Source of the DNA: Anaerolineaceae bacterium
GTDB taxonomy: Bacteria; Chloroflexota; Anaerolineae; Anaerolineales; Anaerolineaceae
Assembly: GCA_016841365.1 (NCBI GenBank)
Contig: JAENZI010000011.1
Location: 1 to 64,000 of the forward strand
Direction: 5' to 3'
Length of the DNA stretch: 64,000 bases
In this document: positions 42,247-51,400 of the stretch, piece by piece
Numbering within the stretch: position 1 is the stretch's first letter
How the letters are laid out: every line of letters starts with the position of its first letter
The notes under the pieces: model-generated
What the model was told of the DNA's origin: nothing
Database searches by the model: none
The model's input: the letters and a program-made list of their open reading frames with translations, nothing else
Program-made: the position numbers and the translations under genes

Positions 42247-43545
42247 ATGTCTTCAAATGCGAAGGAAAAAAAGAAATTCTATAACCTCAACCGGGAAGCG
42301 CGCTTAGCGCAGCTGGCAGAATCCTTTGGCTTGACCGAATCGGATGTTGCGGCATTAAGCGGCGCGCAGGGGTTGACGCCAGAGCTGGCTGACCGGATGA
42401 TCGAGAACGTGGTGGGGGTATTCAGTTTGCCGTTAGGTATTGCCCAAAATTTCAGGGTCAACGGGCGTGATGTGCCCGTCCCGATGGTGGTGGAAGAACC
42501 TTCGATCGTGGCGGGGGCTTCATTTATGGCTAAGCTGGCACTCAACACAGGCGGCTTTTTCGCGCAGTCGACCGCGCCAGAGATGATTGGTCAGATCCAG
42601 ATCCTCGATCTGGACGATCCGCCAGCCGCCCGGGTCAAACTGCTGGCAGAAAAAGACTCCCTGCTGGCACAGGCGGCAGAGGTTGACTCGGTGTTGATGG
42701 AATTAGGGGGCGGTCCCAAGGATTTTGAGGTGCGCTTGATCGAGGATTCGCCGATTGGCGTCTTTCTTGTGGCTCATCTTATCTATGATGTGCGTGATGC
42801 GATGGGGGCTAACGCGGTCAACACTGCCGTGGAACGATTAGCGCCAAGAATCGAGCAAATTACAGGCGGACGTGTTCTGCTGCGGATACTCTCGAACTTA
42901 GCAGATCGACGCCTGGCGTGGGCGAGGGTGACCATCCGCACCGAAGACCTGGCGTTCGATGCGTTCACGGGGGAGCAGGTGCGGGATGGGATCATCGAAG
43001 CCTGGGCGTTTGCTGCTGCGGACCCTTACCGCGCCGCGACGCACAACAAGGGCATTATGAATGGGGTTGATCCGATCGTGATCGCTACCGGGAACGATTG
43101 GCGCGCCATTGAAGCCGGGGCGCATGCTTACGCTGCCAGGCACGGCAGGTATCAGTCCTTATCCACATGGGAGGTGGATTCTGATGGGAATTTGGTGGGG
43201 ATGTTGGAGATGCCTCTGGCGGTGGGTACGGTTGGGGGTGCCACCCAGGTACACCCGGCAGCCAAAGCCAGCCTGCGTTTGATGGGGGTGGAAAAAGCAA
43301 CAGAACTGGCAGAGGTGATCGTTTCGGTTGGTCTGGCGCAGAACCTGGCTGCGCTGCGGGCGTTGGCAACTGAAGGCATCCAGCGCGGTCATATGAGCCT
43401 GCACGCCAGGCAGGTGGCTGCTGCCGCTGGCGCTGACGGTATGCAAATCGATCGGCTGGCAGAACGTTTGGTGGCGGATAAAACAATCCGCATTGATTAT
43501 GCCAGGCAAGTTTTAGAGGAATGGAGTGAGCAATCAGATGACTGA
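42247..43545 (+). CDS. mvaA: Hydroxymethylglutaryl-CoA reductase (class II)
   Basis: Interconverts HMG-CoA and mevalonate with NAD(P)H. At 432 aa it is the compact class II form. Key segments are the catalytic Glu in EEPSIVAGASF, DAMGANAVNT, the Lys in HNKGIMNG, Asp in ATGNDWRAIEAGAH and the flap His near GHMSLHARQVA. The next two genes are HMG-CoA synthase and a thiolase-like gene, so the operon should lead to mevalonate for isoprenoids. It overlaps the HMG-CoA synthase gene by 20 bp. Confidence 0.95.
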   Translation: MSSNAKEKKKFYNLNREARLAQLAESFGLTESDVAALSGAQGLTPELADRMIENVVGVFSLPLGIAQNFRVNGRDVPVPMVVEEPSIVAGASFMAKLALNTGGFFAQSTAPEMIGQIQILDLDDPPAARVKLLAEKDSLLAQAAEVDSVLMELGGGPKDFEVRLIEDSPIGVFLVAHLIYDVRDAMGANAVNTAVERLAPRIEQITGGRVLLRILSNLADRRLAWARVTIRTEDLAFDAFTGEQVRDGIIEAWAFAAADPYRAATHNKGIMNGVDPIVIATGNDWRAIEAGAHAYAARHGRYQSLSTWEVDSDGNLVGMLEMPLAVGTVGGATQVHPAAKASLRLMGVEKATELAEVIVSVGLAQNLAALRALATEGIQRGHMSLHARQVAAAAGADGMQIDRLAERLVADKTIRIDYARQVLEEWSEQSDD

Positions 43546-44614
43546 ATCAGTGCACGAAGGAATCATTAATAAACCGATCCGCCCAGTTGGGATTATTGGC
43601 TATGGCGCGTATATCCCCCGCTATCGTTTACCAGGGACAGAAATCTCTCAGATATGGAAGGGTGAGCCATCTCCCGGGCCGGTGAAGGAAAAAGCTGTTG
43701 CCGGGCTGGATGAAGATGTGATCACCATGTCGATTGAGGCTTCACGCAATGCCCTTGCACGGGCTGGCATTGACCCGCTGTTGCTGCGGGCGGTATGGGT
43801 GGGTTCTGAATCCCATCCTTATGCAGTCAAGCCTTCAGGCACGATTGTAGCCGAAGCTATTGGCGCTTCGGCAAACATCCAGGCTGGCGATTGGGAGTTT
43901 GCCTGCAAGGCTGGCTCCGAAGCGGTTGTGGCTGCTATGGGCTTGGTAGGGTCCCAAATGGGAGAGTATGCTCTGGCGATCGGGATGGATACCGCCCAGG
44001 GTAAACCGGGGGATGCATTAGAATACACTGCATCATCTGGCGGAGCGGCTTTCATCATTGGGCCTGCTGATCAAGCCTTAGCATCGATTGATGCGCATTA
44101 CTCCTACGTGACGGATACCCCTGATTTTTGGCGGCGGGCGCATCAAAAATATCCCGAACATGGTCAGCGCTTCACCGGCGACCCGGCGTATTTCCATCAT
44201 ATCCTCTCTGCTTCAAGCACCTTGATGAAGCATGAAGGGATGGCGGCCGAAGATTTTCGGTTTGCGATCTTCCATCAACCCAATCAAAAATTCCCAGAAC
44301 GGGTAGCAAAACAGCTTGGTTTCAAACCAGAACAGATCAAAGATGGCTTGCTCTCCCCGGTGATCGGAAACACGTATGCCGGTGCCTCACTGGTGGGTTT
44401 GACGGCGGTATTGGATATTGCCTCTCCCGGGGATCGAATTTTGGTCACGTCATATGGATCTGGCGCAGGGTCGGATTCCTTTATCATCACCGTCAAAGAG
44501 GCTTTGCTTGAACGCCGTGAGAAAGCCTTGAGCACGCAGAATTATATCGCCCGGCGGACGGAAATCGATTATGCAACATATGTCCGTTTTCGCGGCAAGA
44601 TTGCGATGAGGTGA
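43526..44614 (+). CDS. Hydroxymethylglutaryl-CoA synthase (archaeal-like)
   Basis: Condenses acetyl-CoA with acetoacetyl-CoA to HMG-CoA. The 362-aa protein has the opening GIIGYGAYIPRYRL, the catalytic Cys127 in WEFACKAGSEA, and the later FAIFHQPNQKFP and GNTYAGASLVGL segments with the expected His and Asn. The length and pattern match the short archaeal type. The GTG at 43526 has AGAGGA five bases upstream; ATG 43538 is an alternative start. It overlaps both neighbouring genes. Confidence 0.93.
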   Translation: MSNQMTESVHEGIINKPIRPVGIIGYGAYIPRYRLPGTEISQIWKGEPSPGPVKEKAVAGLDEDVITMSIEASRNALARAGIDPLLLRAVWVGSESHPYAVKPSGTIVAEAIGASANIQAGDWEFACKAGSEAVVAAMGLVGSQMGEYALAIGMDTAQGKPGDALEYTASSGGAAFIIGPADQALASIDAHYSYVTDTPDFWRRAHQKYPEHGQRFTGDPAYFHHILSASSTLMKHEGMAAEDFRFAIFHQPNQKFPERVAKQLGFKPEQIKDGLLSPVIGNTYAGASLVGLTAVLDIASPGDRILVTSYGSGAGSDSFIITVKEALLERREKALSTQNYIARRTEIDYATYVRFRGKIAMR

Positions 44615-44616
44615 GT

Positions 44617-45786
44617 ATGCCCAGGACACATTCTGAAGTGATTGTTGCTGGTATTGGGCAAACCCCTGTAGGAGAACATTGGGATCTCTCATTGCGGCAG
44701 CTTGCCACACATGCAATTTTTGATGCCCTTGATCAGGCTGCGGGACTCAGGCCGCAGGTGATGTATGTCGGCAATATGCTGGCGGCGACAGCATCACGCC
44801 AGGCAAACTTGGGCGCATTATTGACGGAGAACGCAGGTCTGAGCGGGATTGAAGGTGTGACCGTAGAGGCAGCTGATGCTTCGGGCGGTGCAGCACTGCG
44901 CATGGCTTACCTGGCGGTGCTTTCTGGTGCAGTGGATGTCGCTATTGCGGTGGGTGTTGAGAAATACACCGATGTGATCGGCCCCGAATCAGAAACGCTG
45001 CTTTCCCAAATGCTGGATGCGGATTTTGAGGCTGCTCAGGGGCTGACGCCTATCAGTTTGGCTGGTTTGCTATTTCACCGTTACCTTGCGGAATATTCTG
45101 CCGATAGAGCCGCTTTTGGCGGCTTCCCGGAAGTTGCCCATGCCAATGGCGCCACGAACCTGAATGCTATGTTTCAGAGGGCAATGGGTGCTGGCGTCTA
45201 TCAGAAGCGAGCGTCAAAAGATGCCCAGGTATTGAACCTGTTTGATGTTGCACCCTATGCTGATGGGGCGGCGGCTGTAATTTTAGCGCGGGAAGATGCC
45301 TTGCCAGAAGGTTGGCCAGAAAAACGCGTGCGCCTGATTGGGTCGTCACTGGTGACCGACACACTCTCCATCCATGACCGGCCGGCACCTCTGGTCTGGG
45401 ATGCCGCCAGGCTTTCGGTTGAACGCGCCTGCCGTGCGGCGGGGGTGATGCCGAAGGACTTGGATTTCTTTGAAGTGCATGACGCCACGTCACTTCATGC
45501 AGCCCTATCACTGGAGGCAGCAGGGTTTGCGTCGCAGGGCCAGGGCTGGATGCTGGCAAAGGATGATGTAATTGGTCTGTCGGGGCAGATCCCGATCTCG
45601 ACATTTGGCGGGCTGAAAGCGCGCGGACATCCCTTAGGTGCGACCGGCATTTACCAGGCGGTAGAGGCCGTTCTGCAGTTGCGCGGCGAGGCAGGCGCTA
45701 ACCAGGTTCAAGGCGCCAGACTAGGGTTAATCCAAAATTTGGGCGGCATGGCTGCCACAGCGGCAGCTCATATTCTGGCAATTTAA
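44617..45786 (+). CDS. Thiolase-fold protein with Asp in place of the catalytic Cys
   Basis: An SCP2-type thiolase-like protein of 389 aa. In archaea the gene in this position supplies acetoacetyl-CoA to HMG-CoA synthase in one complex. Here the nucleophile segment reads VEAADASGGAALRMAY, where active relatives have Cys at the Asp87 position. The codon is GAT (44875-44877), two changes from TGT. The other catalytic regions, FEVHDATSLHAA and ARGHPLGATG, are kept. It may be inactive, structural, or catalyse a different step. The ATG at 44617 follows GAGGTGA; a GTG at 44611 overlaps the synthase stop. Confidence 0.85.
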   Translation: MPRTHSEVIVAGIGQTPVGEHWDLSLRQLATHAIFDALDQAAGLRPQVMYVGNMLAATASRQANLGALLTENAGLSGIEGVTVEAADASGGAALRMAYLAVLSGAVDVAIAVGVEKYTDVIGPESETLLSQMLDADFEAAQGLTPISLAGLLFHRYLAEYSADRAAFGGFPEVAHANGATNLNAMFQRAMGAGVYQKRASKDAQVLNLFDVAPYADGAAAVILAREDALPEGWPEKRVRLIGSSLVTDTLSIHDRPAPLVWDAARLSVERACRAAGVMPKDLDFFEVHDATSLHAALSLEAAGFASQGQGWMLAKDDVIGLSGQIPISTFGGLKARGHPLGATGIYQAVEAVLQLRGEAGANQVQGARLGLIQNLGGMAATAAAHILAI

Positions 45787-45795
45787 ATTATTTTT

Positions 45796-45833
45796 TGAGG
45801 GGGAAAACCTCATTTTTTACGCCTTTCAGGCGT
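45796..45833 (+). terminator. Terminator region of the HMG-CoA operon
   Basis: The stem TGAGG/CCTCA (45796-45800 with 45808-45812) is followed by TTTTTT. A second hairpin ACGCC/GGCGT follows at 45819-45833. The LacI operon promoter starts 5 bp later. Confidence 0.65.
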
Positions 45834-45838
45834 GATTC

Positions 45839-45867
45839 TTGACATTCAACCTGTCTGTGTTTATACT
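45839..45867 (+). promoter_or_regulatory. Sigma-70 promoter of the LacI-controlled operon
   Basis: TTGACA (45839-45844) and TATACT (45862-45867) are separated by exactly 17 bp. This is the strongest promoter match in the window. Confidence 0.85.
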
Positions 45868-45868
45868 A

Positions 45869-45884
45869 TGGAAAACGTTTACCA
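45869..45884 (+). promoter_or_regulatory. LacI-family operator overlapping the transcription start
   Basis: TGGAAAACGTTTACCA is a near-perfect palindrome centred on CG, the classic LacI/GalR half-site arrangement. It starts two bases after the -10 box and covers the expected +1. A bound repressor would block transcription of its own gene and the downstream operon. Confidence 0.8.
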
Positions 45885-45930
45885 TTAACACTCAAGTTTA
45901 GCCACTTTCAACGGGGAAGGCGACTGATTT

Positions 45931-46980
45931 ATGACAAAGAGCAGCGGCAGGGCATCGAAGCGGCGCACGAAGATCAATGACGTCGCAAAGCGGGCTGGGG
46001 TTTCGATTTCTACTGTCTCGCGTGTGATCAGCAACAGCACCCATCCCGTCAACGACCAAACCCGGGAGCGGGTTTTGCGAGCAGCCCACGAGTTGGATTA
46101 TGCGCCCAGCGCCCTGGCTAAGGCGATGGTAACAAAAAAATCTTTTATGGTCGGGGTCATCGTCGGTGATACGATGGACCCCTTTTTTGCGGCGATTGTG
46201 CGTGGGGTAGAGGATGTAGGCCGCGAAAAGGGCTTTCTGGTCATCGTTGCCAATTCAGACCGTAAACCAGATCTGGAATATCAATACATTAAAACGCTCA
46301 ATGACTACCAGGCGGACGGGATCATCTTTGCGGGGGGCGGTTTGAAGGATGAGGAATATCTCGAGAACGTCACCAAAACCCTCGAAAAATTTCAAAATCG
46401 TGACGCCCCGGTGATGACGCTGGGTAACCATCTTTTCCCCTCTTATGGAGTGATGGTTGACAATGAGATGATCATCTATGATGCCGCGCAATACCTGATC
46501 AAACTTGGTCATCGCAAAATTGGTTATATCACTGGTCCGGACAATATCACCACATCCGAATTACGTCTGGTCGGATATTCGAGAGCCATGCAGGAGATCG
46601 GCGAAAAAGAATGGATCTTTGCCGGGGATTATATGTATGACGGCGGTCTGCATGCAGCAGAGGAAATTGTCGCACTTAATGAAAAGCCCACCGCGATTTT
46701 AGCTTCCAATGACCGGATGGCGATCGGCTGTGCTGTCGGATTAAAAAAACTTGGCGTCCGCATCCCCGCGGATATTTCACTGATCAGCGTGGGCGGGATC
46801 ACGTCCACCGAATTTATTTCGCCTCCGATTACGTCTATCTACCTGCCGTTATATGACCTGGGCGCAGAAGCCATGCGCAAATTGATTCGGATCAGGGAAG
46901 GCAAAGAAGAACGGTTGGGGAAGACGATCCTCAAGCACGGCCTTGTTGAACGTGCGTCTACCGCACCTCTAAATAATTAA
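45931..46980 (+). CDS. LacI-family transcriptional regulator
   Basis: A 349-aa repressor-type regulator. The HTH (about 14-36) reads KINDVAKRAGVSISTVSRVI, followed by the hinge region SALAKAMVTKKSF. A periplasmic-binding-protein-like ligand domain (about 70-345) contains GVIVGDTMDPFFA, ITGPDNITTSELRLVGY and AILASNDRMAIG. It is the first gene of its operon and probably controls it through the operator just upstream. The ligand would be a substrate or intermediate of the following genes and is unknown. Confidence 0.95.
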   Translation: MTKSSGRASKRRTKINDVAKRAGVSISTVSRVISNSTHPVNDQTRERVLRAAHELDYAPSALAKAMVTKKSFMVGVIVGDTMDPFFAAIVRGVEDVGREKGFLVIVANSDRKPDLEYQYIKTLNDYQADGIIFAGGGLKDEEYLENVTKTLEKFQNRDAPVMTLGNHLFPSYGVMVDNEMIIYDAAQYLIKLGHRKIGYITGPDNITTSELRLVGYSRAMQEIGEKEWIFAGDYMYDGGLHAAEEIVALNEKPTAILASNDRMAIGCAVGLKKLGVRIPADISLISVGGITSTEFISPPITSIYLPLYDLGAEAMRKLIRIREGKEERLGKTILKHGLVERASTAPLNN

Positions 46981-46988
46981 AGGAGCTT

Positions 46989-47993
46989 ATGATGAAATTC
47001 GGGTTTATTCCAGTTGAAGGCGGCGCATATTATGATCAATTTTTAGATGAAGTATTGCTCGGCGAAGAGTTGGGTTTTGATTCGGTTTGGCTGGATGAAC
47101 ATCATGGGGTCAAAGACCACTATTGGCCTTCACCCCTGGTCTGTTTCGCGGGGATTGCCACACGCACCAGCCGTATCCTGTTTGGGACAGATGTGATCGT
47201 GATGCCCTTTTACCACCCGGTGAGGGTGGCTGAGGATGTGGCCATGCTCGACATCATGTCTGGCGGGCGGGTTATTTTAGGTGCCGCAATTGGCTATAAA
47301 CCGGATGAATTTGAACTCTACCAGGTTCCGTTGGAGAAACGCGGTGCGCGGTTTGAGGAAGCCGTTCAGTTGATCAAAAAATTGTGGACTGAGGAAGAAG
47401 TCCATTTCGAGGGGAATTATTACCAGGTGCATGGGCTAAAAATTGAGCCAAAACCCATCAGCAAGCCGCATCCGCCGATCTGGTTGGGCGGTTGGGGCAA
47501 ACTTTCACTGGCACGAGCGGCAAAATATGGTGATGCCTGGATCCCTGGGCCGACGGCAAATTTGCATAAATTACTGAGCGCACAAAAGCTTTATCGTGAG
47601 AATTTGCAAAAGGCTGGTAAGGATGTTCACAGCCCTGAAACACCGCTGACTCGCGAAGTGGTGATCGCAGAGACGGATGCGGCAGCCCGAGAGGTGGCTG
47701 AGAAGCATTTGTTGATCAATTACCGTGACGAATACGGCGGCGGCGAGTGGCAGCACCCATTGATTGGTAAAGAAGATGAAGCAGCCGTGGATGTGTTTGA
47801 GTCGATTGCCAAGGACCGGTTTTTGGTCGGCAGCCCCGAGACGGTGATTGAGAAGATCCACCATTTGCAGGGGACATTTGGGGTGGACCATCTCATCTGC
47901 CGCCTGTATTTCCCGGGAATTCCCCATGAATTTATCGTCAAAGAATTGAATTTGCTTGCCCGGGAGGTTATCCCGGAATTTCGTGCCGAATAA
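46989..47993 (+). CDS. LLM-class flavin-dependent oxidoreductase
   Basis: A luciferase-like TIM-barrel enzyme of 334 aa that uses FMN or F420. Typical segments are GEELGFDSVWLDEHHGVKD, LGAAIGYKPDEFELYQV and PHPPIWLGGWGKLSLARAAK. Whether it acts as an oxygen-dependent monooxygenase or a dehydrogenase cannot be decided from the sequence. It follows the regulator after 8 bp with an AAAGGAG site, and is the first enzyme of the LacI operon. Confidence 0.88.
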   Translation: MMKFGFIPVEGGAYYDQFLDEVLLGEELGFDSVWLDEHHGVKDHYWPSPLVCFAGIATRTSRILFGTDVIVMPFYHPVRVAEDVAMLDIMSGGRVILGAAIGYKPDEFELYQVPLEKRGARFEEAVQLIKKLWTEEEVHFEGNYYQVHGLKIEPKPISKPHPPIWLGGWGKLSLARAAKYGDAWIPGPTANLHKLLSAQKLYRENLQKAGKDVHSPETPLTREVVIAETDAAAREVAEKHLLINYRDEYGGGEWQHPLIGKEDEAAVDVFESIAKDRFLVGSPETVIEKIHHLQGTFGVDHLICRLYFPGIPHEFIVKELNLLAREVIPEFRAE

Positions 47994-48014
47994 TTTTTAG
48001 GTCGGGAGGATCAT

Positions 48015-48740
48015 TTGTTAGATCAAAATTCAACCAGCAGAGAGATCAGGGAAAATAAACCCAAAATTGCTATTTTGGGCATTGGTGCTATTGAACAGCA
48101 CGGACGCCATTTACGGATCGCCACGGATTGGTCGCAGGTGCGAGCGATCAGTCAAGCGGTTGCCCAGGAACTGGACGCCAGGGAACTGGACGCACTTCTG
48201 CTGCCAGCCATCCCATATAGCATGAGTGAGTGCCACGGCTTGATGCCCGGCGTGGTTTACCTGAAACCGCAGACGTTATCGGAGGTCGTGATGGATATTG
48301 CCCGGTCAGTCCGGGAATTGGGTATTCCGTTGATGTTGATCCTCAATGGGCATGGCGGGAACTTTATTTTAGAACCAACTATAGAGAAATTAAACCGGGA
48401 GTATCCTGACTTTCAAATTATTATGCCGCCCGAGGTGTGGGCGCCAGCCGAAGGAGGAGAAGCCATTTTTGAGTCCTTTGGCGCAGGGATTCACGCAGAA
48501 GAAATGGAAACCTCCATGCAGCTTTATCTGGCCCCCGAATATGTGGGCGATGAGCAGGTGGACGTGATCCCGGAGGTTGGCAGGGAATTCCTCGACTATA
48601 CGGTGATGAAAAAAATCAGCCCGGATGGTATTTGGGGATTGCCAAAATTGGGAAAAGCAGAAAAAGGCGAAAAGGCGATCCTTTCATCGGCGAAATCCAT
48701 CGTTGCTTTTGTGCAAAAAGCGCAGGAGGTGTTGCGATGA
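48015..48740 (+). CDS. Creatininase-family amidohydrolase 1
   Basis: A 241-aa metal-dependent hydrolase of the creatininase/MftE/FAPy-deformylase fold. Metal ligands are expected in GAIEQHGRHLRIATDW, NGHGGN and HAEEMETS. The family opens cyclic amides or removes formyl groups. Translation starts at TTG 48015 with GGGAGGA directly upstream. Its end overlaps the second creatininase gene by 4 bp, so the two paralogues are made together and may form a heteromer. Confidence 0.88.
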   Translation: MLDQNSTSREIRENKPKIAILGIGAIEQHGRHLRIATDWSQVRAISQAVAQELDARELDALLLPAIPYSMSECHGLMPGVVYLKPQTLSEVVMDIARSVRELGIPLMLILNGHGGNFILEPTIEKLNREYPDFQIIMPPEVWAPAEGGEAIFESFGAGIHAEEMETSMQLYLAPEYVGDEQVDVIPEVGREFLDYTVMKKISPDGIWGLPKLGKAEKGEKAILSSAKSIVAFVQKAQEVLR

Positions 48741-49507
48741 TATTGACTGAAAACAATAACGCCTGGGATTTTGATAAACACCGTCCAGAGATAGCACTGC
48801 TGCCGCTGGTTTGTTTTGAACCGCACAGCGACGATCTGCCATTGGGCACAGATAACATTCTGATGAACGCCATCAGCAGGGGTGTGGCAGAGCGGTTAGA
48901 AGAAACAACCTTTCTGTTGCCTGCCTGGCCTTTTGGCACATCGGGTTACCTGGCGGGTCAGCCTGGTGTGATCTCCCTGGATCATGAAACCTTATGGCAT
49001 GTGGTGCGCGATATTGCCGTCTCGCTCAATGAACGCGGCATCCACAAGGTGGTGGTGCTGAATAACCACGGCTCAGCGATGACCGGCACGATCAAGCCCA
49101 TCGGCAACTTCATCACCAAAACGGCAGTCAGGCAGTTGAATTACGAAGAGCCTGGCATTCAGGCGATTTGGGTTCAACCGTTTTCGGCAGCGCGTGAGCG
49201 CCTGATGGAGATATTTGACTCTGCAGCGGATGAACTGCATGTAGGCGCCGTTGAGCTTTCGCTGCTGATGCATTTGATGCCGGAAAAATCATGGCCGATC
49301 CCGGAAGATTTTGTGCCCGATGTGAACCCTTCCTATCTGCAGTTCAAGCCGCTGGCGCATTTTTCACCCAATGGCGTTTGGGGCAGGCCCAGCCAGGCTG
49401 ATGCGCAAAAGGGTGCAACCGCATTGGAAATCATTATTGACGGAACGGTGAAATATATCCAAAAGACCTATCGCCAGTTGGAAAAGCTTTCAGAGAAGGC
49501 AGCGTAA
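48737..49507 (+). CDS. Creatininase-family amidohydrolase 2
   Basis: A 256-aa paralogue of the preceding enzyme. The metal-ligand pattern is kept but the surroundings differ: FEPHSDDLPLGTDN, LNNHGSAMTG and DELHVGAVELSLL. I use the ATG at 48737, overlapping the stop of the first gene (ATGA); the frame is open further upstream but only inside that gene. The difference between the two copies suggests two related substrates or a heteromeric enzyme, which is inference. Confidence 0.85.
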   Translation: MILTENNNAWDFDKHRPEIALLPLVCFEPHSDDLPLGTDNILMNAISRGVAERLEETTFLLPAWPFGTSGYLAGQPGVISLDHETLWHVVRDIAVSLNERGIHKVVVLNNHGSAMTGTIKPIGNFITKTAVRQLNYEEPGIQAIWVQPFSAARERLMEIFDSAADELHVGAVELSLLMHLMPEKSWPIPEDFVPDVNPSYLQFKPLAHFSPNGVWGRPSQADAQKGATALEIIIDGTVKYIQKTYRQLEKLSEKAA

Positions 49508-49517
49508 AGGATTTAGG

Positions 49518-50390
49518 ATGTTGAAACCCAGTATTGTCACCGATGAGATCAGCGCCGATTTTGCCACAGCTGTAGAGCTGGGCACTTCATGGGGCATCCA
49601 TGATTTTGAACTGCGCGGCTATGGCGAAAACCGTGCGCCGCTGCTGAGTGATTATCAGAAAACGCGTGTGCGGGAAGTGCTTGACGCGAATGCTGCCCGC
49701 TTGGTCGCGATCTCGCCCGGGTTGTTCAAGTTTCCATTTCCCTCTACCAGTCGGAACGTGTTCCCCGTGGCGGCGATTGACCATGCCATTTTCCAGGATT
49801 GGAAACACAGCAGAGACCTGCTGGGTTTTCATCTCAACGAACTTTTACCGCGTGCGATTGATTTTGCCCGCGAGTTCGACGTGAGGACTATTGTCAGCTT
49901 TGGCTTTGCCCGGGGCACTTTTAAAGGACATTTACCGCCCGATGAATTGGTTGAGATTTTATACCGGGCAGCGGAGCGGATCGGCGCAGCAGGCCTGGCC
50001 CTGGCTATCGAAGTCGAGGATGGTTTCTGGGCAGATACCGGCGCAAATACGGCAGCCCTGCTCAGTGCAGTCAATCACCCTGCACTGCGGGTTAATTGGG
50101 ACCCGGGCAATGCCTTTCAGGCGGGTGAATCCCCCTTCCCCGAAGGGTATGCCCACATCCGGGACACCATCACGCATGTGCACTTCAAGGATATTGTTGA
50201 AGAAGCTAACGGGTTTTTTGAATACCGGGTGGAAGGTGCGATTGATTGGTCCGGCCAGATCAAAGCGCTCGTCGACGATGGGTATGACGGTTTTATTTCG
50301 GTTGAGACCCACATGTCCCCGCAGGTTGCCAATGCCCGGGCGGCGACACGCCGGTTGTTACGATTGATTGAAACAGCGACCGCTGATTAG
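49518..50390 (+). CDS. Sugar phosphate isomerase/epimerase-like TIM barrel
   Basis: An AP-endonuclease-2/xylose-isomerase-like barrel of 290 aa. Candidate metal ligands are Glu in AIEVEDGFWA, Asp in VNWDPGNAF, His in HVHFKDIVEE and Glu in ISVETHMS. Such enzymes isomerise or epimerise keto sugars or inositol derivatives, or act as dehydratases. It lies 10 bp after the second creatininase gene, inside the LacI operon. Confidence 0.87.
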   Translation: MLKPSIVTDEISADFATAVELGTSWGIHDFELRGYGENRAPLLSDYQKTRVREVLDANAARLVAISPGLFKFPFPSTSRNVFPVAAIDHAIFQDWKHSRDLLGFHLNELLPRAIDFAREFDVRTIVSFGFARGTFKGHLPPDELVEILYRAAERIGAAGLALAIEVEDGFWADTGANTAALLSAVNHPALRVNWDPGNAFQAGESPFPEGYAHIRDTITHVHFKDIVEEANGFFEYRVEGAIDWSGQIKALVDDGYDGFISVETHMSPQVANARAATRRLLRLIETATAD

Positions 50391-50415
50391 AATGATGGAA
50401 AAAAGGAGAAATTTA

Positions 50416-51342
50416 ATGGATCATAATGATATCAAAGGCATGATCCCCGCAACGATTTTGCCGATGGACGAGAACTTCAAGCCAGATTACGAGGCCTATG
50501 GGGATTATTTAGAGTGGTTGATTGGTGAGAACGCAGTGGCGTTTGCGATTAACATGGATACGGGGGAAGGCCCCCAGTTGAGCCTTGAAGAACGCTTGCT
50601 GGCCGCCGAAAAAGCGGTGGCGGTAGGCAAGGGGCGAGTCAAGGTATTGGGCGGCGTAATGGGATCGACCACCCAAGGCGCGGTTGAACTGGCAAAGATG
50701 TACCGCGATGCCGGTGTGGACGGCCTGGTCGTGTTCCCTAATGCGGCATTTCGCAATGACCCGCTTGACCCGAGGATCCCGATTTCATACCACCGTGCGA
50801 TCGCTGAAGAAAGCGGCTTGCCGATCGTGTTATTCCAGTTGGCACCGGTATTTGGCGGCGTGTTGTATTCCCCTGAAACACTGACGCAATTACTGCGACT
50901 GCCCCAGGTGATCGGCATCAAAGAAGCCAGTTTTGATGCGCAGGTTTATGCGAAAACTGTTGCACTTGTGAAAGACCTTGGCCGGCCGGTAACCCTGCTC
51001 ACTGGCAATGACCGCTTTATCCTTGAAAGCATCTTGATGGGCGCGGAAGGCGCACTGCTGGGTTTTGGCGCTATCGGCTGCGGTATGGTTGCTGGACTGC
51101 TGAAAGCTGTCGCCTCCGGCCAGCATTATCAGGCTGTGATGGAACGAGAACGCGTGCAGGGTTTTATGGACCTGATCTACGCTGACCCGGTGCTTGATTA
51201 TCGTGCGCGCTGTAAGGTTGCCCTTGGGCATGTGGGCGTCATTTCACAGGATTTGACTTTCGTCCGCCCGCCCCTGCTGCAGATCGGCGAAGAAGAATCA
51301 GCCAGGATCAAAGAGGGGCTCAAGCAGGTCGGGATGATCTAG
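50416..51342 (+). CDS. DapA-family aldolase/lyase with altered active site
   Basis: A class I (Schiff-base) aldolase of the dihydrodipicolinate synthase family, 308 aa. The Schiff-base Lys169 is kept in IGIKEAS. The usual active-site Tyr segment (YNxP) is replaced by LFQLAP with Phe140, and the GTTGE loop reads DTGEG. It is therefore unlikely to be DapA itself. Many such paralogues cleave or dehydrate 2-keto-3-deoxy sugar acids. I choose ATG 50416 with AAAGGAGAAA upstream; the open frame from 50368 overlaps the previous gene. It is the last gene of the LacI operon. Confidence 0.88.
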   Translation: MDHNDIKGMIPATILPMDENFKPDYEAYGDYLEWLIGENAVAFAINMDTGEGPQLSLEERLLAAEKAVAVGKGRVKVLGGVMGSTTQGAVELAKMYRDAGVDGLVVFPNAAFRNDPLDPRIPISYHRAIAEESGLPIVLFQLAPVFGGVLYSPETLTQLLRLPQVIGIKEASFDAQVYAKTVALVKDLGRPVTLLTGNDRFILESILMGAEGALLGFGAIGCGMVAGLLKAVASGQHYQAVMERERVQGFMDLIYADPVLDYRARCKVALGHVGVISQDLTFVRPPLLQIGEEESARIKEGLKQVGMI

Positions 51343-51363
51343 TCTGCATTACTTTGAAGCGTT

Positions 51364-51400
51364 GGTCAGGCGGGAACCTGCACGCCTGACCTTTTTATTT
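51364..51400 (+). terminator. Rho-independent terminator of the LacI operon
   Basis: A 9-bp perfect stem (51364-51372 with 51383-51391) with a 10-nt loop is followed by a T-rich tail. It lies 21 bp after the last operon gene and defines the 3' end of a roughly 5.5-kb transcription unit. Confidence 0.9.

Follow-up and report, generated by a model that had tools for sequence, protein, structure and literature searches.

The Weimberg, Dahms and uronate dehydrogenase routes combine oxidation, hydrolysis, isomerisation or dehydration, and a DapA-family lyase or dehydratase, and the enzymes IolN and IolO likewise act in one route. Among the F420-dependent sugar dehydrogenases, Fgd and Fsd are presented as sugar-phosphate enzymes, Fsd having low activity on free sugars, in the sections of a review that treat them, a table of which lists Fgd for Chloroflexi (PMC8498797). 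Here we analysed an operon at positions 45839-51399 of the window, by which we mean the whole 64,000-nucleotide stretch of contig JAENZI010000011.1 from an Anaerolineaceae bacterium (assembly GCA_016841365.1). The operon encodes a LacI-family regulator, an LLM-family oxidoreductase (LLM), two creatininase-family hydrolases (creatininases 1 and 2), a xylose-isomerase-like protein (the isomerase) and a DapA-like lyase. Neither a characterised operon with these families nor a matching pathway was found in searches of an open-access library; a first-pass annotation, made from the sequence alone, had seen no obvious known pathway in it. The reading that we favour, at a probability of about 0.4, is that of a catabolic operon under LacI repression, whose substrate would be derived from a carbohydrate and probably bear an amide, as an N-acylated or amidated sugar acid does, and in which LLM would be F420-dependent.

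The operon was confirmed as a real single transcription unit, and its promoter, operator, six packed genes and terminator all lie in the stretch given by the first-pass annotation:

45839..45867, forward strand: sigma-70-type promoter, TTGACA-17-TATACT, matching 11 of 12 consensus positions
45869..45884, forward strand: LacI-type operator TGGAAAACGTTTACCA, one base 3′ of the -10
45931..46980, forward strand: LacI-family regulator (PF00356 plus PF00532/PF13377)
46989..47993, forward strand: LLM oxidoreductase, probably F420-dependent (PF00296; TIGR03619 above cut-off)
48015..48740, forward strand: creatininase-family hydrolase 1, TTG start (PF02633, 170.6 bits)
48737..49507, forward strand: creatininase-family hydrolase 2 (PF02633, 131.6 bits)
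49518..50390, forward strand: xylose-isomerase-like (AP_endonuc_2) isomerase, epimerase or dehydratase (PF01261)
50416..51342, forward strand: class I lyase/aldolase, DapA-like, carrying Phe-Gln where DHDPS has its tyrosine (PF00701)
51364..51399, forward strand: intrinsic terminator, 9-bp stem plus T run (hairpin 51364-51391), -18.4 kcal/mol

The number of promoter-like sites in the 9 kb scanned was at the chance level (seven, against a shuffle mean of 8.5), and the six sites other than the operon promoter score 9 of 12. Across the 2.86-Mb host genome (19 contigs, 98% complete), the operator is the sole exact match to its own sequence. The intergenic gaps range from -4 to 25 bases, the creatininase 2 gene overlapping that of creatininase 1 by 4 bases. 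The terminator is omitted by a first hairpin scan, which took loops of 3-8 only; in a separate folding test, none of 200 shuffles was as stable as its hairpin (z -3.95). Pfam agreed with the family names given earlier (LacI, LLM, two creatininases, AP_endonuc_2 and DapA-like): the regulator scored 62.7 bits with PF00356 and 105.1 bits with PF00532, both over cut-off, both creatininases exceeded the PF02633 gathering score of 31.3 bits, and the isomerase scored 85.7 against 31.1 bits with PF01261. The regulator reached no named-model cut-off among the 18 NCBIfam models listed.

The gene set recurs in three other genomes, with all six families in G775, five of the six in G210 and four of the six in G340, which supports the earlier claim of a single LacI-type catabolic unit. 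Consistent scattering of the orthologues in relatives had been named beforehand as an observation that would speak against such a unit; in G775, G210 and G340 they were found clustered. In G775, a single contig of 32,413 bases carries the six families, which span about 15 kb from the start of LacI to the end of the isomerase, in the order LacI, creatininase 2, Dpp-type ABC genes, DapA-like, LLM, creatininase 1, Rbs-type ABC genes, nitrilase-family and isomerase (labels such as transporter or Gfo/Idh in relatives rest on inspection by eye or on comparison with proteins labelled in that way, except where a family search is given). The G210 cluster contains LacI, Dpp-type ABC genes, creatininases 1 and 2, the isomerase and the DapA-like gene, and the LLM relative of this genome (63% identical) sits in another cluster. 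In G340, the stretch from LacI to LLM carries genes for a glutamine-synthetase-family protein, a GMC oxidoreductase, a gluconate-2-dehydrogenase subunit 3 domain protein, an aldehyde dehydrogenase and a class I amidotransferase, and LLM is followed by an isochorismatase-family gene, the isomerase, the DapA-like gene, two Gfo/Idh-like genes and Liv-type transporter genes; no creatininase was found within the 37 kb examined. The identities to the window proteins are 75-76% for LLM (G340 and G775), 51-55% for the isomerase, 50-66% for the DapA-like protein and 42-53% for LacI (all three genomes), 61% and 46% for creatininase 1 and 55% and 40% for creatininase 2 (G775 and G210, respectively). Since ABC-transporter genes join the set in the G775, G210 and G340 clusters, and further amidases replace or supplement the creatininases in relatives, the earlier description as self-contained and the statement that no transporter is included hold at the window locus only.

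Operator-like sites were found behind by-eye promoters in all three clusters. The G340 site TGGAAAACGTTTTCCA (L120:2317) precedes a Gfo-like gene and LacI and overlaps the mechanically called 5′ end of the Gfo-like open reading frame; the G775 site is TGGAAAACGATTTCCA, and the G210 site AGGAAAGCGCTTTCCT is a perfect palindrome with a weaker likeness (4 mismatches). Mononucleotide shuffles equalled the match to TGGAAAACGTTTACCA in 0 of 5000 cases for G340, 0 of 5000 for G775 and 183 of 5000 for G210.

The operon is rare and patchy, yet a conserved unit. No isomerase orthologue was found in 40 kin genomes (genus, family and order, many of them incomplete), seven of which gave weak matches at E<=0.001 (best 2.3e-7). 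Among 396 genomes drawn across the class, the host included, orthologues were present in two others, G210 and G340 (51-55% identity); 37 further genomes gave weaker matches (E<=1e-15), of which the one with the best E-value was 36% identical. At E<=1e-100, LLM was found in five of the 396 genomes (the host, G210, G245, G340 and G368), and G210 and G340, which carry the isomerase, thus both belong to the four LLM carriers other than the host, an overlap with a chance probability of 7.7e-5 on the assumption, which does not hold, that genomes are independent. The DapA-like protein was matched at E<=1e-60 in 12 of 400 phylum genomes including the host, the other 11 at 41-46%. An isomerase scan of genome contigs returned five loci, namely those of G210 and G340, L078 (Chloroflexota, 54%; its genome is G775), L079 (Hyphomicrobiales, 44%) and L080 (KSB1, short, 38%), and the closest isomerases among named records were from Anaerolineae and other Chloroflexota metagenome-assembled genomes. 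At the Hyphomicrobiales locus, the neighbours of the isomerase belong to other families and include another kind of DHDPS-type protein.

The cofactor of LLM was addressed by family models. Its best NCBIfam match is the F420 subfamily TIGR03619 (177.3 bits against a cut-off of 166.9), which is also passed by the LLMs of G340 (175.9) and G775 (174.3), whereas the best FMN-named family reached 118.8 bits. The window protein is not Fgd (TIGR03554, 63.5 against 420 bits). The host genome encodes cofC, cofD and cofE together, all above cut-off, and CofD was present in all five genomes tried (the host, G210, G340 and two genus mates). No match to haem-copper oxidase (COX1) or cytochrome bd was obtained in the host genome or the two genus mates, so an oxygen-using LLM fits poorly in the host. 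Judged by these models, LLM is a putative F420-dependent enzyme that more probably works by F420 hydride transfer than by oxygenating its substrate. Separately, a second, distant LLM (23% identity) adjoins the cofC-cofD-cofE genes on host contig C3 (L099:1-809).

Neither creatininase reached a named NCBIfam equivalog. Creatininases 1 and 2 scored 74.3 and 72.3 against 235 bits for creatininase sensu stricto (TIGR04448), 47.8 and 43.4 against 245 bits for IolN (NF041098), and 89.4 and 81.5 against 172 bits for MftE (TIGR03964); with the ArfB-type deformylase (NF033501), creatininase 1 scored 37.4 against 180 bits and creatininase 2 was unlisted at E<=0.001. Aligned with the structure 1q3k, creatininase 2 retains the Glu, His, Asp, later His and ETS-motif Glu, positions that we take to be metal-binding, and the HYE-motif Glu, presumably a metal ligand of creatininase, is absent from both proteins (HGS in creatininase 2, HGG in creatininase 1). 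Amidase families besides creatininase also occur in the clusters: the best models of the G340 isochorismatase-family protein are RutB and BiuH (88 and 87 against cut-offs of 378 and 370), and those of the G775 nitrilase-family protein are archaeal nitrilase and then N-carbamoylputrescine amidase, far below cut-offs. Amide or lactam opening by the operon creatininases is plausible, and the amidases appear to adapt the route to a substrate that carries an amide. Elsewhere in the host genome, on contig C16 (L025:7288-8253), a true IolN (506.6 against 245 bits) adjoins two zinc alcohol dehydrogenases and a protein that resembles IolO at a score far under the cut-off; aldehyde:ferredoxin-oxidoreductase-like and RraA-like proteins were recognised there by eye, and the whole is probably an inositol-type cluster.

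The predicted model of the isomerase (pLDDT 93.5) is nearest to Art22 (Z 29.1, rmsd 2.4, 254 aligned), followed by UlaE, SCO6571, AtHYD and AsbF, which are tied at Z 26-27 (AtHYD: Z 26.2, rmsd 3.5, 270 aligned); its nearest structures are sugar isomerases, epimerases and dehydratases. It falls below the IolE and IolO equivalogs (30.7 against 290 and 27.5 against 300 bits). The DapA-like model (pLDDT 86.3) resembles DHDPS and N-acetylneuraminate lyases. The structure searches with both models returned folds and no single function. Aligned with DHDPS 3pud, Lys169 of the DapA-like protein meets the GIKDA Schiff-base lysine, Phe140 stands at the YNVP tyrosine, FRN against YYN and PVFGG against GRTG, the catalytic tyrosines and the GRTG-loop Arg of DHDPS being, we assume, the functional residues. 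The Phe replaces the DHDPS Tyr in all four DapA-like orthologues aligned. A lysine-pathway DHDPS (TIGR00674) was rejected, the score being 111.6 against 206.15 bits and the active site departing from that enzyme, and the score for the KdgD 5-dehydro-4-deoxyglucarate dehydratase was also below cut-off (57.5 against 373.95 bits).

From these data we infer repression, cofactor, substrate, step order and the target of each creatininase. In the proposed sequence, hydrolysis would come first, one or both creatininase-type metal hydrolases cutting an amide, lactam or lactone; LLM, as an F420-dependent dehydrogenase, would then oxidise the sugar-like substrate; the xylose-isomerase-like enzyme would isomerise, epimerise or dehydrate the product; and the DapA-like Schiff-base lyase would split or dehydrate a 2-keto acid. 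LLM, isomerase and DapA-like lyase together form a core that resembles an oxidative sugar route without a kinase.

LLM relatives were also found in other settings. Those of G245 (63%) and G762 (57%) accompany a DapA-like and a Gfo/Idh-like gene, which favours the proposed route. That of G368 (79%), on a 3-kb contig, follows genes of the GMC, gluconate-dehydrogenase-subunit and amidotransferase types, an arrangement also seen in G340. Three Chloroflexota clusters, L112 (G245), L113 and L117, hold LLM, DUF2264, deacetylase-like and Gfo/Idh-like genes, with a DapA-like gene in L112 and L117 and, by eye, a GntR-like gene in L112 and L113; AP_endonuc_2, DUF2264 and polysaccharide deacetylase were family-tested in L112 and their counterparts in L113 and L117 assigned by eye. 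LLM was matched at E<=1e-40 in 38 plasmid records, of which 31 bear the genus name of a haloarchaeon, and 15 regions were examined (ranks 2-12, 14, 15, 19 and 24; rank 1 is unannotated). When pectin enzymes, galactonate dehydratase, Gfo/Idh, sugar isomerase and DHDPS family were taken as sugar-type, 12 of the 15 regions had such genes, a point in favour of the sugar reading; L157, L161 and L163 were without them, and L150 and L159 counted as sugar-type chiefly via a DHDPS-family gene. A DHDPS-family gene lies within 8 kb in five regions (L150, L153, L154, L156 and L159), galactonate dehydratase was found in five (L151, L153, L154, L155 and L156) and pectin enzymes in five (L151, L152, L153, L155 and L158). 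Seven of the nine DHDPS-family genes in these regions were compared, and two of the encoded proteins (L150 and L154; 30 and 33%) share Phe-Gln and KEASF with the window protein, whereas five do not. Three haloarchaeal isomerase-labelled neighbours gave partial-length matches to the window isomerase (24-26%). Plasmid searches with the isomerase and creatininase 2 returned nothing of at least 60% identity (23-34% among the matches listed), and that with the DapA-like protein no match at 1e-40. On the Haloprofundus halobius megaplasmid (L154:6425-8987), cofC and npdG lie beside the LLM gene in a sugar-type cluster. A broader proposal, in which an F420-linked, kinase-free route for amide-bearing sugar acids (for instance aminouronic acids in N-acylated or amidated form, whose pair of amide bonds would account for the presence of two creatininase-family hydrolases) has a core of LLM and Phe-Gln DapA-like lyase common to Chloroflexota and haloarchaea, with the bacterial LacI/operator pair conserved, is in our view doubtful.

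Several observations weigh against an F420-dependent route for an amide-bearing compound. The G245 LLM (L112) lies below the TIGR03619 cut-off (162.5 against 166.9), as do the three haloarchaeal LLMs scanned, for which this is also the best model (148-150); among PDB sequences, the window LLM best matched a luciferase-like monooxygenase (7bip) and then an alkanal monooxygenase chain, ahead of an F420 enzyme in third place; and the search for F420-biosynthesis genes was limited to cofC, cofD and cofE. In the plasmid regions, F420 genes occur in just 2 of 15 (npdG in L153; cofC and npdG in L154), a creatininase is listed in none of the 15, the gene table being incomplete, and the presence of sugar-type genes near LLM in 12 of 15 was scored from product names by a broad criterion with no background control. 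The second G210 cluster has LLM and a Gfo/Idh-like gene and no DapA-like gene in 19 kb, and creatininase 2 of G210 (L070:5994-6761) keeps just one of the five conserved positions taken as putative ligands, so that two hydrolyses are not universal; by its sequence, this protein may be a pseudoenzyme, a partner subunit only. Lastly, COX1 was matched in G210 and G340 (in a scan of the host, two genus mates, G210 and G340) and cytochrome bd in G340 and G775, not in G210, and an oxygen-using LLM is therefore possible in these three. These terminal oxidases and the monooxygenase at the head of the PDB matches suit an alternative in which LLM is an FMN-dependent monooxygenase that opens an N-heterocycle or amide in a RutA-like manner, amide hydrolysis, isomerisation and lyase cleavage following, as does the isochorismatase-family hydrolase adjoining the G340 LLM, whose best models, far below their cut-offs, are RutB and BiuH. 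We consider it unlikely, given that the host genome gave no match to either oxidase, that the best FMN-named family falls short of the F420 subfamily (118.8 against 177.3 bits) and that LLM relatives adjoin sugar-type genes. RutA itself (TIGR03612, cut-off 498.3) was rejected, its model being missing from the best 25 of 33 families for the window LLM, the last of which scored 48.8 bits, and giving the G775 LLM 41.2 bits.

A cyclitol or aminocyclitol pathway, in which an oxidised ring would be opened by an IolN-like creatininase and epimerised by an IolO-like AP_endonuc_2 protein before the lyase acts, draws on the naming of IolN (creatininase-like) and IolO (AP_endonuc_2-like) by NCBIfam as inositol-breakdown enzymes, on the true IolN on contig C16 and on the Rbs-type transporter of G775. 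The low IolN and IolO scores of the window proteins, far under the cut-offs, and the lack of an IolM-type dehydrogenase in the operon make it quite improbable; membership of either equivalog was rejected and the likeness kept as an analogy. We give similarly little credence to the view that the genes share a promoter and not one linear pathway, the hydrolases detoxifying or recycling a compound distinct from the substrate of LLM and lyase. The varying order and composition of the clusters, the G340 region devoid of creatininase, the G210 LLM relative in its separate cluster and the seemingly inactive G210 creatininase 2 would fit this view, but the six families on one G775 contig with a similar operator would not. 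Finally, in a 3-keto-glycoside route the xylose-isomerase-like enzyme would be a beta-eliminating lyase or hydratase and the Gfo/Idh-type oxidation would be encoded elsewhere. AtHYD, a 2-hydroxy-3-keto-glucal hydratase, is indeed among the nearest structures of the isomerase, and Gfo/Idh-like genes occur in the G340 and DUF2264 clusters; however, Art22 is closer, UlaE and AsbF are tied with AtHYD, and the operon has no Gfo/Idh gene, which renders this route very unlikely.

Beyond the window, the host genome contains two sites with two mismatches to the operator, C11:37458 and C19:64350. The latter, AGGAAAACGTTTTCCA, is a near-perfect palindrome that none of 5000 shuffles equalled, and some 80 bases downstream of it begins an operon, read by eye as Liv-type ABC, that encodes two more creatininases. 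In the operator-motif search, which the first-pass annotation had proposed for finding co-regulated transporters, 40 genome sites at <=3 mismatches were counted against 46 for a reversed control pattern, so weak operator-like sites carry no meaning and an operator-defined regulon was rejected. Because no -35/-10 was seen by eye directly before the C19 site and the host genome encodes eight LacI genes, the co-regulation is only suggestive, and the C19 operon is put forward as a candidate second target of this LacI. The C19 operon (L024:2351-17199) comprises, mostly by eye, Liv-type ABC genes, a NagB-like protein, the two creatininases, an SDR and a Gfo/Idh-like protein, together with a PreA/PreT-like fusion, a sulfolactate-dehydrogenase-type protein, a KDPG-aldolase-like protein and an NAD-epimerase-like protein without NCBIfam match. 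The Dpp-type binding protein of G210 has no match in the host genome at E<=1e-40.

The operon is flanked by a thiolase gene upstream and a galE-type gene downstream. Between the thiolase gene and the operon promoter lies one further feature:

45796..45834, forward strand: two hairpins, the first carrying a T run

The first of these (45796-45812, -6.7 kcal/mol, 10 of 200 shuffles as stable) probably ends the preceding operon; the second has -9.5 kcal/mol, with 0 of 200 shuffles as stable. Directly upstream, positions 42247-45786 encode, by eye, HMG-CoA reductase and HMG-CoA synthase, followed by a thiolase, arranged as in a mevalonate set; Pfam was applied to the latter two proteins. The G+C content of the operon (52%) is close to that of the remainder of the window (51%), and composition therefore gives no sign of recent import.

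If the F420-dependent reading holds, the operon would offer a direct way into the role of F420 in the sugar catabolism of apparently anaerobic Chloroflexota, and it would also allow functions to be assigned to two subfamilies of creatininases and to a DapA subfamily that lacks the usual tyrosine. Compared with known systems, the window LLM belongs to the same Pfam family as Fgd and Fsd, which, in the parts of the review concerned, also oxidise sugars, as phosphates, with F420 (PMC8498797), but it is linked to creatininases, an isomerase and a DapA-like lyase and to no kinase. The Weimberg, Dahms and uronate routes differ in that the operon has LLM in place of an NAD(P) dehydrogenase, includes creatininase-family hydrolases and lacks a sugar-acid dehydratase of the enolase or IlvD type. 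The IolN-IolO pair likewise joins a creatininase-family hydrolase to an AP_endonuc_2 enzyme, although the window proteins are far below both equivalog cut-offs, and RutA-RutB resembles the operon in having an LLM that adjoins an amide hydrolase, RutB being the best model of the G340 hydrolase, whereas the window LLM is not RutA by model, its hydrolases are of another family and a DapA-like protein and an isomerase are added. The DUF2264 clusters L112, L113 and L117 share with the operon an LLM 57-64% identical, a DapA-like gene (L112 and L117) and an AP_endonuc_2 gene (L112), and differ from it in having no creatininase, in their DUF2264 and deacetylase genes and, in L112, in sugar ABC genes by eye.

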